Shown here: positions 34,236 through 42,794 of the stretch, piece after piece
Position numbering within the stretch: the first letter of the stretch is position 1
Layout: every line of letters begins with the position of its first letter
NCBI RefSeq assembly: GCF_900109825.1
Contig: NZ_FOBL01000014.1
Span: 1-64,000, forward strand
Length of the DNA stretch: 64,000 nucleotides
Origin: Alkalibacterium putridalgicola
GTDB taxonomy: Bacteria; Bacillota; Bacilli; Lactobacillales; Carnobacteriaceae_A
Direction: 5' to 3'
Notes under the pieces: model-generated
Database searches by the model: none
Told to the model about the DNA's origin: nothing
Seen by the model: only the letters and a program-made list of their open reading frames with translations
Translations under genes and position numbers: made by a program

Positions 34236-34499
34236 ATGCCGGAGACAACTTTAAACCCCACTTCAGCTCGGAAACAATTCTATCAATTATTAAAAGAAGT
34301 CAATGAGAACCATAGTGAAATTCAAATCATTAGTAGTACAAACGAGAATAATGCTGTATTAATTAGTCTAGATGACTGGAAAGCTATACAGGAAACATTA
34401 TATTTAGAGCAGACGGGTACGTTAGATAAAGTTAGAAGTCGTGAAAAAGATGAAAGTGGTTTTACTGAAGTAGACGCTATCGACTGGGATAATCTGTAA
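34236..34499 (+). CDS. yefM: YefM-like antitoxin (Phd/YefM family)
   Basis: An 87-residue protein. The N-terminal Phd/YefM fold begins MPETTLNPTSARKQFYQLLKE; VLISLDDWKAIQETLYL is the conserved middle. The C-terminal tail is acidic and would wrap the toxin. AAGAGGTGA precedes the ATG. Its stop overlaps the toxin start by one base. It should neutralise YoeB and repress the shared promoter. Confidence 0.93.
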   Translation: MPETTLNPTSARKQFYQLLKEVNENHSEIQIISSTNENNAVLISLDDWKAIQETLYLEQTGTLDKVRSREKDESGFTEVDAIDWDNL

Positions 34500-34765
34500 T
34501 GTCGACTTACGCTATCAAAATAAAGAACTCAGCTAAAAAAGATTTTAAAAAACTAAAGGCCTCAAATTTAAGGAAACAGTTTGAGGAAATCGTTTCAACT
34601 TTGAAAGAGGATCCATATAGTCAATCGCAATCATTTGAAAAACTTTTCCCTAAACACGAAGGAAGATATTCAAGAAGATTGAATCATCAGCATAGAGTAG
34701 TATATAAAGTGAATGAAGAAACTAAAGAAGTTGAAATCTACTCAACATGGTCACGTTATGAATAA
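34499..34765 (+). CDS. yoeB: YoeB-like toxin (RelE superfamily)
   Basis: An 88-residue ribosome-dependent mRNA endonuclease. It has the characteristic C-terminal pattern: GRYSRRLNHQHRVVYKV, then EIYSTWSRYE with catalytic-site His/Arg/Tyr residues. An intact start overlaps the antitoxin stop (TAATG). Together with yefM and the promoter it appears to be a complete module. Confidence 0.93.
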   Translation: MSTYAIKIKNSAKKDFKKLKASNLRKQFEEIVSTLKEDPYSQSQSFEKLFPKHEGRYSRRLNHQHRVVYKVNEETKEVEIYSTWSRYE

Positions 34766-35987: not shown

Positions 35988-36184
35988 GTCGCCTCCTCCT
36001 TAAAGTTGCATTAAGTATAGTTTAATGAAACGGTCGTGTGAAGCTTTATTGACGTCGACACACGTTTAACTGGCTTGTTTATTTCTTTTTGTCTGCTCAG
36101 CATACTCAGTCTTCTGAGTGGGACATAAAACCTGTCTATAGTGACTGCTCAAATTATCATCTCTTATCAGATGGACTTAAATCA

Positions 36185-36490
36185 ACCAGATACGACCCAG
36201 TCAAGGGCCCTGAATTTTTGGGTAGTCACTAGAAGCACCTTCTGATTCCAACCCAATAAATAGAAGGCAGTGAGTGGGCACTACAAGAGTTTTATACTGT
36301 CTGCTCGACAGATTGTGGATAGCGGGTATGACCTAAAAGACTCATTTAGAGGCATCTCATGAAGAGATACTTTCGAGCAGGCACTACAGGAATCATTTGA
36401 TCCTACTCAACCATAAACAATAAACCAGTAGTCACTACCCAACCGAATGTTCTTACAATAAGGAAAGCCTTCGACGCGGGTCGAAGGCTC
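36185..36490. repeat. 51-52-bp periodic intergenic element (array C)
   Basis: GTCACTA/GGCACTA motifs at 36225, 36277, 36380 and 36431 keep steps of 52, 103 (two units) and 51. The missing step near 36328 has a degenerate TATGACCTA. The whole 300-base block, including its last hairpin (AGCCTTCGAC/GTCGAAGGCT), is homologous to 42980-43285. It has no open frame. Upstream bases 36004-36184 show no further feature. Confidence 0.8.
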
Positions 36491-36514
36491 ACATAACTAA
36501 AAATCTATATTTAA

Positions 36515-37705
36515 CTAGCTCTTCACACTTGCGCCACTACCGGCATCCACGGTTTCTTCCTCTTTCTGAGAGGCTCCGGATGCGGCATCGATATCGCCGT
36601 CGAGTTTCAGACCGGTTTGTTTGAGGTACCAGTCTACGATCGGCTTAAAGTCAAGGATATATTCATTGATGCCTTTATAGTTTCCTTCCGCGTCATGCAT
36701 CGCCTGATAGTTGTGAACGACGAACTTGTCTGGACCGTGTGTCGGTACGTGAACGCGAACGACGTCCTGTCTACCTGAACGGAGCTGCTGGATGACCCAG
36801 CCAACATTCTTGAGGGCACTCTCAGGGTGACAGAGGACCAGCGGATTACCTACTTGTCCCGGAACACGGTCAGCAAGCATATCTTCCGCTTCCGTGGTGT
36901 AATTGTAATAAAGGAACTGGTTGTTTTCGTCGGCGTAGGTCAGTTCCATCGGCATGGAGGACAGGAAAGTATTGATCTGGTCGACCGTCAGGATCCCGCG
37001 GTTCAGTTTTACATAGGTATCCCCTTCAACTGCATTGACTTTTTCGGCTGCCTGTTCGACCCAGTCTTCTGCAGCCATATCGACCCCTTCGATAGTGGTG
37101 TCGATCGGTTGAGACGCATGCAGATCTTCTTCCGGTAAAGGTTCTTCAACCGGCGCTTCCAGACGATTCACCAGGCGTACAAAAGAGAGGAATTTCTCGA
37201 GCACGGTCTGAAGAAAGTCCACAGTGTTCTGATCAGTTAAATTGTATTCTTCGTCAAAAGCCTGTTTGACTCTGCCAAGCAGGAATTCATTTCCGGGCAT
37301 AACAATAGCATTGACACCGGGTGCATACAGGATCTGACGCAGGTGCAATTGGGCACGTGAAGAGCCCTGGTCATAATAAGATGCACCAACGATCATGACC
37401 GGTTTATTTTCCAGTGGATGGATCTTGAATGACAGCCATTCAAGGACACTTTTCAAGCTGGCCGGTATCGTATGGTTGTGCTCGGGCGTGGCGATGATCA
37501 CCCCGTCGGCCGCCATAATTTTCTGATTGAGCTGCTGGATAGGGTAGCTGTTTGTCTGGTCGTCATCCTGATTGAACATCGGGATGTCTTTGATCTCAAC
37601 AACATCCAGGTCAAATAAACCAGAATAATGGCGTTTGATGAAGTTAAGTAAATAACGGTTATATGAGATGTCCGCGTTTGAGCCGACGATGCCTATTAAT
37701 TTCAT
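36515..37705 (-). CDS. FMN reductase-PAS fusion with two C-terminal flavinylation motifs
   Basis: A 396-residue cytosolic protein. Residues about 1-180 are an NADPH-dependent FMN reductase domain ([39 protein letters not shown]). Residues about 230-365 are a PAS domain of the kind attached to DUF438 ([34 protein letters not shown]). The tail holds DAASGAS (373-379) and DAGSGAS (387-393), both matching the ApbE target pattern Asp-x-x-Ser-Gly-Ala-Ser. An ApbE gene lies two genes upstream in the same direction. Covalent FMN on Ser379 and Ser393 is therefore predicted. AGGAGTG precedes the ATG. It probably transfers electrons from NAD(P)H through bound and tail flavins; the acceptor is unknown. 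Confidence 0.85.
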
Positions 37706-37723
37706 TGTTTTAACACTCCTATG

Positions 37724-38332
37724 TTAGATAGTTTCCCAGGAAAAGTTTTCCGCTGCTTTTACATTGCTGTCGTGGGCTTGAACCAGCTGGTTGACCAGAT
37801 CGACGAATATCAGGAAATCAGCAAACAGGCCGGTAAGTTTTTCGATTTGACTCGCATCTTTCAATCGGTTTTCTTCGTCAAAGGCCTGCAGAGAATGACT
37901 CAACAGAAATTCTGAACTCGGCATGATGCGTGCTTTCAGTTCAGGTGAATCCAAAATCTGTCGCAGTTGTGCCTGGGCACGGGAAGAGCCTAAAGTGCCG
38001 TACGAAGCACCTGTGATCATGACTGGTTTATCCACAAAAGGATAGATATCATAGGATAACCAGTTCAAAGCATTGATCAGTGACGCAGGGATGGCATGGT
38101 CATATTCAGGTGTGCTGATGATGACGCCATCTGCCTGTTCGATTCTGTCCGCCGCTTCCTGGATGACAGGAGGAAGGGGGCTGTCTGTCGGTTTATTGAA
38201 AACCGGGAAGTCTTTGATCTCCATTAATTCCATAGTAGCCTCTTCAGCAAAGTGACTTTGTATAAATTGAAGCAGTTTACGGTTGGTTGACTGGCTGGAG
38301 TTTGTACCAACAAGCCCGATTAAATGTTTCAT
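37724..38332 (-). CDS. NADPH-dependent FMN reductase
   Basis: A 202-residue stand-alone FMN_red domain, paralogous to the N-terminal domain of the following gene: LVGTNSSQSTNRKLLQFIQ for phosphate binding, STPEYDHAIPASLINALNWL and MITGASYGTLGSSRAQAQLR. It has no PAS domain and no flavinylation tail. It lies between the ApbE gene (34 bases) and the fusion gene (18 bases), so the three are likely one operon. It may reduce free FMN/FAD or feed the fusion protein. Confidence 0.85.
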   Translation of the reverse strand: MKHLIGLVGTNSSQSTNRKLLQFIQSHFAEEATMELMEIKDFPVFNKPTDSPLPPVIQEAADRIEQADGVIISTPEYDHAIPASLINALNWLSYDIYPFVDKPVMITGASYGTLGSSRAQAQLRQILDSPELKARIMPSSEFLLSHSLQAFDEENRLKDASQIEKLTGLFADFLIFVDLVNQLVQAHDSNVKAAENFSWETI

Positions 38333-38366
38333 AAGTCGTTAGTTCCTTTCTTATTCATAGAGTTGG

Positions 38367-39320
38367 TTACCTGGAAGATAAGGGAATGAGTTTTTCTTCC
38401 AGGCCTTTTGAATACATGACAGTGTTGCTTTTCGTGATAAGGATGCAGTCGATATCCACAAGTGCTTCGACAGTGGAAAGAATGGTGGAAGGATTGTGAC
38501 CAAACAGACGCGTGGTCCAAATTTCACCATCGACAGACTCCTTGGAGATGATCGTGAGACTTGCAAGGTCCGTTTCGATCGGATAGCCCGTTTGGGTATC
38601 AAAAATGTGATGAAAGGACTCGTTCTCGTGGTGGAGCTGGCGCTCGTAAATGCCGGAAGTCACAACGGACTGGTTCTGAGTGTCCACCGCAAGCAGATAG
38701 TTGCCGCGGGGCCGTTTTGGATCCTGGATACCGATGCGGTAACAGCCCGAGGCGCGCTTTTGTGAGAAGCCAGTTGACACAAAATTTCCGCCCAAGTTGA
38801 TATAGGCCGATGTGATCGGCTGATTTTTTAAGTCCTTCATGATCAAATCAGCGATATGGCCCTTTGCCAAGGCACCGAGGTCGATCTGCATCCCTTTTTT
38901 CTCCAGATAAACCGACTGCCGTTCCTCATCGAGATGGATCAGATCCGGATCGGTGAGCTCTAGTGCTGCAGTGATTTCTGTTTCCGCCGGTTTTCTAGCA
39001 TCGTCAAAGCCGATCCGCCAAGCTTTGATCAAAGGACCCAAGGCAATGTTCAGATGGCTGCCCTCAGCCAGACTGTGTGCTTTTCCTTTCTTTATAATCT
39101 GATAAAGGTCAGGGTGAACGCTCACAGGAGAGATGCCTGCCGCCAGATTAACAGCCATCAGTTCTGACTTGGTGTCGTTGGCGCTGAAGCGCTGCTCGTA
39201 GATGTGGAGTTTTCGAATCACGTCTTCAATGATCAACGCACTGATCTTATCATCTAAAGTGTCGACCATGATATCGATGACTGTGCCCATCATCCGGATG
39301 GTGCTTAGTTGTTCTGGCAT
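38367..39320 (-). CDS. apbE: FAD:protein FMN transferase, cytosolic ApbE
   Basis: A 317-residue ApbE. Motifs: FSANDTKSELMAVN, GSHLNIALGPLIKAWRIG, DLGALAKGHIAD, INLGGN and HIFDTQTGYPIE. It transfers FMN from FAD to Ser/Thr of the Asp-x-x-Ser/Thr-Gly/Ser-Ala-Ser/Thr motif. It begins MPEQLSTIRMMGTVIDIMVD, with no signal peptide or lipobox, unlike the exported ApbE, so it should act in the cytosol. The only visible target motifs nearby are the two in the tail of the FMN reductase-PAS protein at 36515. GGGAGGAG precedes the ATG. Confidence 0.92.
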   Translation of the reverse strand: MPEQLSTIRMMGTVIDIMVDTLDDKISALIIEDVIRKLHIYEQRFSANDTKSELMAVNLAAGISPVSVHPDLYQIIKKGKAHSLAEGSHLNIALGPLIKAWRIGFDDARKPAETEITAALELTDPDLIHLDEERQSVYLEKKGMQIDLGALAKGHIADLIMKDLKNQPITSAYINLGGNFVSTGFSQKRASGCYRIGIQDPKRPRGNYLLAVDTQNQSVVTSGIYERQLHHENESFHHIFDTQTGYPIETDLASLTIISKESVDGEIWTTRLFGHNPSTILSTVEALVDIDCILITKSNTVMYSKGLEEKLIPLSSR

Positions 39321-39367: not shown

Positions 39368-40234
39368 TTAAATGGTTTCGAGAACCGATCGTTCAAGATC
39401 AGCCAGTTCTGTCAGAGCGATTTCATTCCGGTTTACTTTAGAATAGGCTCGTGCATCATAAATAAGTTCCAGGATCTTCTCTTTCGGCTCGTTTTTGATG
39501 ATTGCATTTTTCGCCAGCTGGATCGCCGCTTTAGCTAAGTAGTAAGTGACATGGTTATCTGAACAGATGTTGACGGCATGCCAAAGGAGTGCATCACTGA
39601 TCTCGATTTCATCGATCCTTGAATAAAAGACCCCGCTGTTATAGACGATATTCAGTACACGCCAGGTGTCTTCCATATCATTATTGGGATAGTTATAGAT
39701 TTTCTCAAGAACCTTATTGAAGTAGAATTCTGCTTTTCTGAGATCCCCTTCTCGTGAATAAACCATACCGATTCCTGTATGGGCGAGTAAACGGAAAATC
39801 GTTGTATCAGCCGTTTCTTCTTCCAGGAGGACTTGGTCAAAGGTGAAAAGAATATCCATGATCGGCTGATGTTGGAAAATCATAATGAAACCATTCAGGT
39901 AATGATAACGAAGCAGCAGCTGCGCATCTTCGATCGTGTCGATAGCAATGCTGCTGATAAGCTGGTGAGCTTTTTCATACTTACTCGTAATAAGGAAAAA
40001 CTCCGCCTGGTTCATTTTTTCAACGACTTCAGAATAACGAACCCCGACTTTGGGAAATAAGTCACTTAAAGGGAAGTCAATGCGGTTGCATAGTTTATTT
40101 AATATTTTCAAGTTAGGAACTTGTCCATTATTTTCAAAACGACTGAGTGTAGCTTGGGTACAGATCCCATCAGCCAGGTCACTCTGCGAGTATCCCTTAG
40201 CTTTTCGGATTTCGATGAAACGATGGATATTCAT
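39368..40234 (-). CDS. Rgg-like XRE regulator
   Basis: Start ATG 40234 (MNIHRFIEIRKAKGYSQ), with GAAGGAG eight bases upstream. The product is 288 residues: helix-turn-helix at about 5-58 (SQSDLADGICTQATLSRFENNG), then a helical repeat region as in Rgg/MutR/PlcR proteins. It lies 47 bases upstream of apbE in the same direction and probably controls the flavinylation operon. No small peptide gene was found beside it, so a peptide ligand is unproven. Confidence 0.82.
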   Translation of the reverse strand: MNIHRFIEIRKAKGYSQSDLADGICTQATLSRFENNGQVPNLKILNKLCNRIDFPLSDLFPKVGVRYSEVVEKMNQAEFFLITSKYEKAHQLISSIAIDTIEDAQLLLRYHYLNGFIMIFQHQPIMDILFTFDQVLLEEETADTTIFRLLAHTGIGMVYSREGDLRKAEFYFNKVLEKIYNYPNNDMEDTWRVLNIVYNSGVFYSRIDEIEISDALLWHAVNICSDNHVTYYLAKAAIQLAKNAIIKNEPKEKILELIYDARAYSKVNRNEIALTELADLERSVLETI

Positions 40235-40490
40235 GTTAAAGACTCCTTCGCGTTGGTCTTTGGAACTGGAAAGTGGTGCATTCAACTTTGTATTGATAAT
40301 GTTTTCACATATTCGGCATTGATCATAGTATACAGTGAGAATTATTATCAGTCAATAAGGATATATAAAAATGTATATAAAGATTTGTCTAAAAAATGAA
40401 TAAAATTCATCTTGAGAAGTTAAATAACGTTATATAATTGAGAAATAAGGGCTGTTTTACTCTGGATTAAAGAGACATTGGTTCTATATA

Positions 40491-41265: not shown

Positions 41266-41505
41266 ATGGATAATGTGATAGATTTTACGGTTCCAGTCTT
41301 TAAGGTTCTGGAAAAGTTTCCTGAAATCAAACCGCTGCTTGTCAAAGCAGGGTTTAAACCTTTAACGGATCCGAAGATGTTAAACTCAGTTGGCCGACTG
41401 GTCAGCTTGAATCAGGGCGCAAAAAAGATCAATGTGAAGCCGAACGATTTGGCAAAACAACTGGAATGGAACGGATACGAAGTAAAAGGGGTAACAGAAG
41501 CATGA
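41266..41505 (+). CDS. DUF1858 domain protein
   Basis: 79 residues making one DUF1858 domain: DFTVPVFKVLEKFPEIKPLL, then LVKAGFKPLTDPKMLNSVGR and NVKPNDLAKQLEWNGYEV. This small helical domain commonly accompanies DUF438/hemerythrin proteins. GAGAGGAATTGAG precedes the ATG. Its stop overlaps the start of the DUF438 gene by four bases (ATGA), so the two are translationally coupled. Confidence 0.88.
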   Translation: MDNVIDFTVPVFKVLEKFPEIKPLLVKAGFKPLTDPKMLNSVGRLVSLNQGAKKINVKPNDLAKQLEWNGYEVKGVTEA

Positions 41506-42794
41506 AGAAACCGGAATACATGAATGAAAATCAGCAAAAACGTGTAACGGTACTCAAGGATATCCTGCTGCGCCTTCATGGAGGAGCGGATTCCGAGTCG
41601 GTCCAAGCCGAGTTTGACGAACATTTCCAGGGTATCAGTGCAATCGAAATCTCACTGATGGAACACGAACTAATTGACAGTGAAGACAACGATATTACTT
41701 TTGAAGATGTCATGAAACTGTGCAATGTCCATGCCAATCTGTTTAAAAATAGAGTCTCAGAACCGGGTAAAGTCAGTGAATTCGAAAAACCAGGTCATCC
41801 GATCCAGATCATGCGCACTGAAAATCAGGCCATGCGTGCAGCCGTCATGCGCATCAACCGGATCATCGCAAATCTGGGTGAACTGCCTTATGAAAAAGGC
41901 TTGCTCAGAGGCTTGAACAACCAGCTGGATTTACTGGCCCAGTTTGATACCCATTACAAACGTAAAGAAGAAGTGTGGTTCCCGGTCATGGAAAAATACG
42001 GGCATGATGCACCGCCGAAAGTCATGTGGGGAGTCGATGATCAGATCCGCGAGCTGTTCGACCAGGTGCAGCGTGATTTAGGTGCGATAGATCAAGTCGG
42101 AAAGAAAAAACTGCAGAAAAGCTTTGAGACTTTCTCTTTTGAATTCAATGAAATGATTTTTAAAGAAGAGACGATCCTCGTACCTTTAGTCCTTGATATC
42201 TTTAATGAAGACGACTGGATAGGCATAGCTAAAGACAGTAAAGAATACGGCTACACGATCGTTAAACCGGCAGAAGAATGGGTGCCTGAACGGGTTTCCT
42301 TTATTGAAGAGGATAGTGACAGCGAAGAAAAAGAAGAAATCGCCATCGAAGATGTTCCGCGTCACAAGGAAATGCCTTTCGGGAATGGCTTCTTGACGCT
42401 GAATGAAGTGGAGAAGATCCTGGATATCCTCCCTCTGGAACTGACCTTCATCAACAAAGACAATGTGTTCAAGTATTTCAATGACAGTATTCCTGATGAG
42501 GAAAAAGTTTTCCGCCGTGCCCCAAGTGCGATCGGTCGGGAAGTCAAAAACTGTCATCCTCCAAAAAGTCTGGATATGGTTCTCGGTCTGATCGCGGATC
42601 TAAGCTCAGGCAGAAAAGACAAGGAAAGCATGTGGTTCCCGCGTAAAAACGGACAGTTCATTCATGTGACCTATGCTGCAGTCAGAGATGACGATGGCAC
42701 ATATATGGGCATCCTGGAATATGTACAGGACATCCAACCGCTTCGCGACCTTACAGGTATGAAGCGCGGGTTAAGTGAGCAGGACGCTGAATGA
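41502..42794 (+). CDS. DUF438 protein with hemerythrin and PAS domains
   Basis: 430 residues from ATG 41502 (MKKPEYMNENQQK). Order: DUF438 at about 5-75; hemerythrin-like HHE domain at about 90-235 (HPIQIMRTENQ, DTHYKRKEEVWFPVMEKYG, EETILVPLVLDIF); acidic linker; PAS domain at about 295-415 (FLTLNEVEKILDILPLELTF; NCHPPKSLDMVLGLIADLSSGRK). Hemerythrin domains bind di-iron and react with oxygen or NO. The PAS domain is closely related to that of the FMN reductase fusion at 36515, including a Cys-His-Pro motif, suggesting a shared redox-sensing network. Confidence 0.9.
   Translation: MKKPEYMNENQQKRVTVLKDILLRLHGGADSESVQAEFDEHFQGISAIEISLMEHELIDSEDNDITFEDVMKLCNVHANLFKNRVSEPGKVSEFEKPGHPIQIMRTENQAMRAAVMRINRIIANLGELPYEKGLLRGLNNQLDLLAQFDTHYKRKEEVWFPVMEKYGHDAPPKVMWGVDDQIRELFDQVQRDLGAIDQVGKKKLQKSFETFSFEFNEMIFKEETILVPLVLDIFNEDDWIGIAKDSKEYGYTIVKPAEEWVPERVSFIEEDSDSEEKEEIAIEDVPRHKEMPFGNGFLTLNEVEKILDILPLELTFINKDNVFKYFNDSIPDEEKVFRRAPSAIGREVKNCHPPKSLDMVLGLIADLSSGRKDKESMWFPRKNGQFIHVTYAAVRDDDGTYMGILEYVQDIQPLRDLTGMKRGLSEQDAE

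Follow-up and report, generated by a model that had tools for sequence, protein, structure and literature searches.

A cytosolic FMN reductase-PAS protein of Bacilli with a disordered tail of predicted ApbE flavinylation motifs

What does a flavin transferase that stays in the cytosol modify, and what would the attached flavin do there? Both questions are raised by a minus-strand operon of Alkalibacterium putridalgicola, a bacterium whose genome lies near those of Alkalibacterium kapii and A. gilvum (87-88% protein identity). The operon is located in the window, that is, the whole 64,000-nucleotide stretch of DNA that was analysed. It runs from an HTH_3/TPR regulator through ApbE and a small FMN_red protein to the gene for a larger FMN_red-PAS-tail protein, which comes last; the intergenic gaps are, in the same order, about 47, 34 and 18 bases (Table 1). 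Rfam returned no RNA element or riboswitch match in the operon region. Positions 36003-36515 form a half-kilobase non-coding segment in which several short words recur (CACTAC, GCAGGCACTAC), likewise without an Rfam match, and genes for a YefM-type antitoxin and a YoeB/ParE-type toxin lie side by side at 34236-34765 on the plus strand.

Table 1. Features of the operon, in window coordinates
Feature	Position	Strand	Basis
FMN_red-PAS_10-tail protein, 396 aa	36515..37705	-	ORF, Pfam, AlphaFold2
Tail motif 1, DAASGAS, residues 373-379, predicted FMN on Ser379	36569..36589	-	
Tail motif 2, DAGSGAS, residues 387-393, predicted FMN on Ser393	36527..36547	-	
Partner FMN_red, 202 aa, without motif	37724..38332	-	Pfam
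Cytosolic ApbE (FAD:protein FMN transferase), 317 aa	38367..39320	-	PF02424, E=5e-67
HTH_3 + TPR transcriptional regulator, first operon gene	39368..40285	-	Pfam
Terminator-like hairpin, 11-bp stem, directly 3' of last gene	36465..36490	-	Consensus scan only
Promoter-like site 5' of regulator	40327..40355	-	Consensus scan only; site numbers near chance

In the large protein Pfam finds FMN_red (PF03358) at residues 1-145 (E=1.2e-36) and PAS_10 (PF13596) at residues 244-353 (E=3.7e-26; 92.3 bits against a cut-off of 22.1). An AlphaFold2 model built from 42 orthologues consists of a folded FMN_red up to residue 183, a linker, the PAS at about 215-364 and a tail at 371-396; only in this last segment does pLDDT fall below 50 (to about 30), and the tail is therefore predicted to be disordered. 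The N-terminus leads directly into the FMN_red fold, and no signal was found in the sequence, the Pfam matches or the model. ApbE, for its part, has neither a signal peptide nor a lipobox according to hydropathy and lipobox scans. It aligns with the solved members 7esa (E=1.1e-60) and 4ifu and keeps TSGxYER, HHI-D-TGYP and the D...T region near the C-terminus. The first-pass annotation had described an FMN reductase and a PAS domain in one chain, a flexible tail ending in two ApbE target motifs, and a signal-less ApbE two genes away; each of these points is borne out, the flexible tail by the model, with both motifs exactly at the residues it had given.

By fold and sequence comparison, the FMN_red domain is nearest to the ChrR/YieF/FerB-type quinone and chromate reductases (3svl, 1rtt, 3u7r), which, unlike the window protein, are single-domain enzymes with neither PAS nor tail. 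The closest solved relative of the PAS, matched by fold and sequence only, is 2qkp, the C-terminal domain of S. mutans SMU_1151c. The DUF438-hemerythrin-PAS_10 proteins to which this structure belongs share the PAS_10 family with the window protein but have no reductase domain, and as a control none of 14 such DUF438-type proteins carries an ApbE motif. One of them is encoded in the window itself (41466-42794), following a DUF1858 gene (the pair spans 41266-42794 on the plus strand, 1 kb from the regulator), and A. kapii and A. gilvum retain the pair beside their operons (L021, L022). We considered the DUF438-hemerythrin-PAS protein as a partner of the operon and rejected it: it is near the operon only in the window and the two other Alkalibacterium loci, a more distant 39% copy being present at L077, and it is thus not a general partner.

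Are the tail motifs more than a coincidence of composition? We searched for the pattern D-x-x-[ST]-[GS]-A-[ST], in which Ala at position 6 is fixed by the pattern, in 99 orthologues: 20 from whole genomes and 79 intact ones from 80 named loci, a few being the same gene reached twice, so that the distinct tails number 89. All 99 tails contain at least one motif and 94 contain two to four, while the bodies of the same proteins (the other ~360 residues) contain none. The tails hold 241 motifs in total, against 0.009 expected per shuffled tail, and shuffling the window tail yields two or more motifs with P=1.5e-5. Together, the shuffles and the orthologue tails rule out a chance origin. Retention of the motifs in orthologues beside cytosolic apbE genes, on which the first-pass annotation had staked its reading, is seen throughout the set. 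Motifs are spaced 10-35 residues apart (median 15), and the last one ends 2-4 residues before the C-terminus in 75 of 79 proteins. The linkers vary in length and sequence and the motif residues are nearly fixed, with Asp in 222 of 223 copies. Position 5 is Gly in 134 and Ser in 89 of these 223 copies, both window copies having Gly. The strict ApbE consensus is D-x-x-[S/T]-G-A-[S/T] (PMC12052999); the Ser variant departs from it, which counts against the reading of the tail as flavinylated. As to spread beyond Bacilli, the PAS-tail query matched, in 149 genomes sampled across the phylum, the PAS part only, at 22-33% identity, and the matches that were read are DUF438-type.

If the tail is the substrate of the cytosolic ApbE, the two should occur together. 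In a survey of 60 Lactobacillales genomes, ApbE frames fell into two length classes: long ones of 353-418 aa, as in secreted ApbEs, and short, cytosolic-type ones of about 310-335 aa. Of the 24 genomes with an FMN_red-PAS-tail protein, 23 have a short ApbE, against none of the 33 without the protein or a variant of it (Fisher 4.5e-15, a value that overstates independence because the genomes are related). The single exception, G022, is only 72% complete, and its contig breaks off next to the operon; in G012 only a fragment is left, at a contig end. The remaining three genomes encode variants (a split PAS-tail or an FMN_red-FMN_bind-FrdA protein) and also have a short ApbE. Within the genus, the short ApbE accompanies the protein in 3 of 3 genomes and is found in 0 of 9 without it. 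Seven genomes (G013, G029, G030, G037, G044, G050 and G057) have the short ApbE as their sole ApbE and no FMN_bind protein, which leaves the tail as the only evident substrate there. The window protein has no Pfam match to FMN_bind (PF04205), nor does its own genome at E<=0.001, though that genome (G000) encodes a second, longer ApbE at contig C24:11015-11854.

At the level of loci, a short ApbE adjoins the operon in 71 of the 80 named cases, and hydropathy and lipobox scans found a signal peptide or lipobox in none of the 71. For seven of the nine loci without a neighbouring apbE, the genome holds a cytosolic-type apbE elsewhere. Another of the nine is that of Tetragenococcus halophilus DSM 20339 (L051, genome G065), in which apbE and the FMN_red-PAS gene both appear interrupted; this looks like joint decay, although sequencing error may also account for it. 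The ninth comes from a MAG. The MAG G061 has no cytosolic-type apbE, which tells against the link.

Biochemical precedent for such a modification is available. ApbE takes FMN from FAD and attaches it to the final Ser/Thr of its motif, and seven residues are enough for this (PMC12052999). The engineered Flavin-tag likewise relies on a bare seven-residue motif, but it is synthetic, whereas the motifs of the window type are natural, repeated and conserved (PMC12052999). Klebsiella pneumoniae modifies a cytosolic fumarate reductase with a signal-less ApbE (PMC12052999), a system similar to ours in pairing such an ApbE with a soluble cytosolic reductase; it differs in that the window protein has no FMN_bind or fumarate-reductase domain. 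Closest of all, Huang et al. 2024 described FMN_red proteins, mainly of Firmicutes, with an extended C-terminal region bearing one to two motifs and with co-localised apbE, and demonstrated covalent flavin on two Lactococcus proteins, those of L. lactis and L. taiwanensis, with an alanine-mutant control; their methods give in vitro flavinylation with Listeria ApbE (PMC11334425). FMN_red tails can thus be ApbE substrates, and the core idea is known. We consider it very likely that the cytosolic ApbE attaches FMN to the tail of the window protein as well, by analogy with these related tails, for which the experiments were done, and from the sequence evidence above.

The opposite reading is that the tail motifs go unmodified here and serve some other purpose, ApbE acting on a different substrate. 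The degenerated copies (DAVASAS in L058 and L092) are what one would cite for it. Against it stand the strict retention of the motifs while the linkers diverge, the co-occurrence with ApbE, the genomes without another evident substrate, the apparent co-decay in one genome, and the published flavinylation of related tails (PMC11334425); we judge it highly improbable. The first-pass claim that the tail is flavinylated by the cytosolic ApbE is upheld by these same lines of evidence. Its claim that no such protein had been described survives in part: a 2024 paper described FMN_red proteins that carry ApbE motifs at the C-terminus (PMC11334425), and the PAS-bearing form with many flavins is apparently undescribed. 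A search of the open-access literature found no paper combining ApbE, an FMN reductase and a PAS domain. The genes EF1225-EF1227 of E. faecalis, which may be orthologues, returned no relevant paper on expression in the same literature when searched by locus tag.

How far do the published proteins overlap with ours? Both have an FMN_red domain and an unstructured C-terminal motif extension, with apbE nearby and Firmicutes as hosts. The theme of Huang et al. is extracytosolic transfer, and their text mentions neither PAS nor FMN_red motif arrays above two, and neither a cytosolic class of ApbE nor a partner subunit (PMC11334425). The published description of their proteins (WP_021723379.1 and WP_205872264.1) fits a clade of PAS-less tailed reductases better than the PAS clade. 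A plasmid-borne PAS form does exist in L. lactis.

To place these forms, we built a tree of 66 FMN_red domains. The PAS-tail reductases form one clade (98/99) and the small partner FMN_reds another (100/96). PAS-less tailed reductases fall into a separate clade on a long branch (100/99), which includes the motif-less L145; this relative ends abruptly at residue 214 and is for that reason weak as a control. The nearest relatives of the PAS-tail clade are FMN_red-FMN_bind-FAD_binding_2 (fumarate-reductase) fusions (joint support 95/99). These fusions (L106, L107, L143 and L151), about 800 aa where complete, have the same small FMN_red partner and are probable NAD(P)H:fumarate-type reductases. 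They form the sister clade of the PAS-tail reductases. The single FMN_red-PAS-tail clade appears to be new, as does a sister clade in which the same platform would feed FMN_bind-FrdA.

Domain variants suggest that the PAS-tail behaves as a mobile module, found with FMN_red, alone, with FMN_bind, and repeated. PAS-tail proteins that stand alone, 178-245 aa long with one to three motifs and no reductase, occur at L102, L104, L108 and L109. The 882-aa protein of L105 (4500-7145, minus strand), encoded next to a small FMN_red and a cytosolic ApbE, has an FMN_red domain and three PAS_10 domains, with nine motifs in clusters that follow each folded domain. The lipoprotein variant, seen only at L110 (5151-6350, minus strand), joins FMN_bind to PAS_10 and additional ApbE motifs and represents a PAS-tail module outside the cytosol. 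The PAS-tail standing alone or repeated up to nine motifs likewise appears to be new here. PAS-less FMN_red proteins with one to four tail motifs are found at L146-L150, L162 and L164, most of them beside a cytosolic apbE. That of L147 adjoins a free-standing PAS_10 gene, L146 has near-motifs (DADTGSS), and the peptide EGWWIEAINL lies near the motifs in both.

These variants bear on the role of the attached flavin. Huang et al. propose that ApbE tethers the active-site FMN of their FMN_red proteins and model the L. lactis motif near the reductase flavin site (PMC11334425). Applied to the window protein, this would mean that the tail folds back and pins the enzyme's own cofactor, with no extra carrier. 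PAS-less relatives with a single motif right behind the reductase domain do exist (L148 and L150), and in these the flavin might do no more than occupy the site of the reductase itself, which speaks against a carrier role. In the PAS form, however, the tail lies beyond the PAS, about 190 residues after the reductase domain; its motifs (2-4, up to 9) outnumber the one flavin site per subunit; the partner FMN_red is motif-less in 80 of 80 loci; and PAS-tail proteins without any reductase domain occur. We regard a pinned active-site flavin as unlikely. The reductase-free PAS-tails and the variable motif number, exceeding one per flavin site, favour a carrier instead.

A further alternative gives the PAS the leading part: it would bind the tail-tethered FMN and signal redox state, or light, to a partner such as the operon regulator, with the reductase resetting the signal. 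PAS and at least one motif do come together in four arrangements (FMN_red-PAS-tail, PAS-tail alone, FMN_bind-PAS-tail and the triple-PAS form), and the HTH/TPR regulator is present in 44 of the 80 named loci. But many loci have no regulator, the protein has no output domain, there are many motifs per PAS, the sister clade has a catalytic fumarate-reductase module in place of the PAS-tail, and the closest solved PAS is of the DUF438 type, a match by fold and sequence. Such a sensor seems to us improbable. The first-pass annotation, too, called the PAS a sensor, a role that stays putative for a domain that behaves as part of a mobile module.

The reading that we prefer, and think probable with considerable reserve, is that of a two-subunit flavoenzyme with an ApbE-flavinylated tail that works as a swinging redox arm. 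The small FMN_red adjoins the large protein in all 80 named loci and appears, from this strict pairing, to be its obligate paralogous partner, which is new here; the two would assemble into a cytosolic NAD(P)H-dependent flavoenzyme, its larger subunit extended by the PAS and the disordered tail with two ApbE target motifs. Enzymes of the FMN_red family take NAD(P)H as donor and bind FMN. The signal-less ApbE of the operon would use FAD as donor and place FMN on the final Ser of both motifs (Ser379 and Ser393) in the cytosol. From NAD(P)H, electrons would then first reach the non-covalent FMN in the FMN_red core, next the tethered tail FMNs, and finally a partner encoded outside the operon, with the PAS most likely docking tail or partner. 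The sister clade, in which the platform of two FMN_reds is combined with FMN_bind and a fumarate-reductase-type domain, suggests the natural direction: NAD(P)H, FMN_red, covalent FMN, acceptor. From these fusions we infer electron transfer from core to tail and onward, and delivery to a partner by the window protein is a reasonable inference. No fifth conserved gene that could encode the acceptor was found beyond the four operon genes in the 80 named loci.

Gene order varies between hosts, being regulator-ApbE-FMN_red-large in most Lactobacillales and FMN_red-large-ApbE in several Bacillaceae. The operon is also plasmid-borne, on p71_2_192kb of E. faecium (L115) and pUC11A of L. lactis. On the former, a conjugative plasmid, IS1216 copies flank the four genes and aac(6')-aph(2'') lies nearby, so the operon can travel.

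Multi-FMN_bind proteins offer the nearest parallel to many flavins on one chain, with several flavin sites and a possible flavin wire; they are generally extracytosolic and use folded FMN_bind domains, whereas the window protein has linear motifs in a disordered cytosolic tail (PMC10339131, PMC11334425). More broadly, and tentatively, Bacilli may have built a cytosolic flavin wire, in which two-subunit FMN_red platforms pass electrons to disordered tails, each with an array of short linear motifs that hold FMN covalently; the tails would belong to interchangeable PAS-tail modules (free-standing, fused, in tandem or on a lipoprotein) served by a dedicated ApbE. It would be an intracellular, disordered counterpart of multi-flavinylated or multihaem carriers; we hold this wider picture to be possible but doubtful.

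To our knowledge, research on ApbE has dealt almost entirely with folded domains located outside the cytosol. The attachment sites predicted here are short motifs that recur in the disordered tail of a cytosolic enzyme; it occurs in enterococci, lactococci and many salt-tolerant bacilli and is also encoded on plasmids of E. faecium and L. lactis. Through the sister relationship to the FMN_red-FMN_bind-FrdA fusions, the electron route can be tested directly. If the prediction is true, the cytosolic class of ApbE gains a dedicated substrate. If the tail flavins accept electrons, they would form a movable redox cofactor with a tunable copy number, and the tail is probably a built-in movable electron carrier for the cell.
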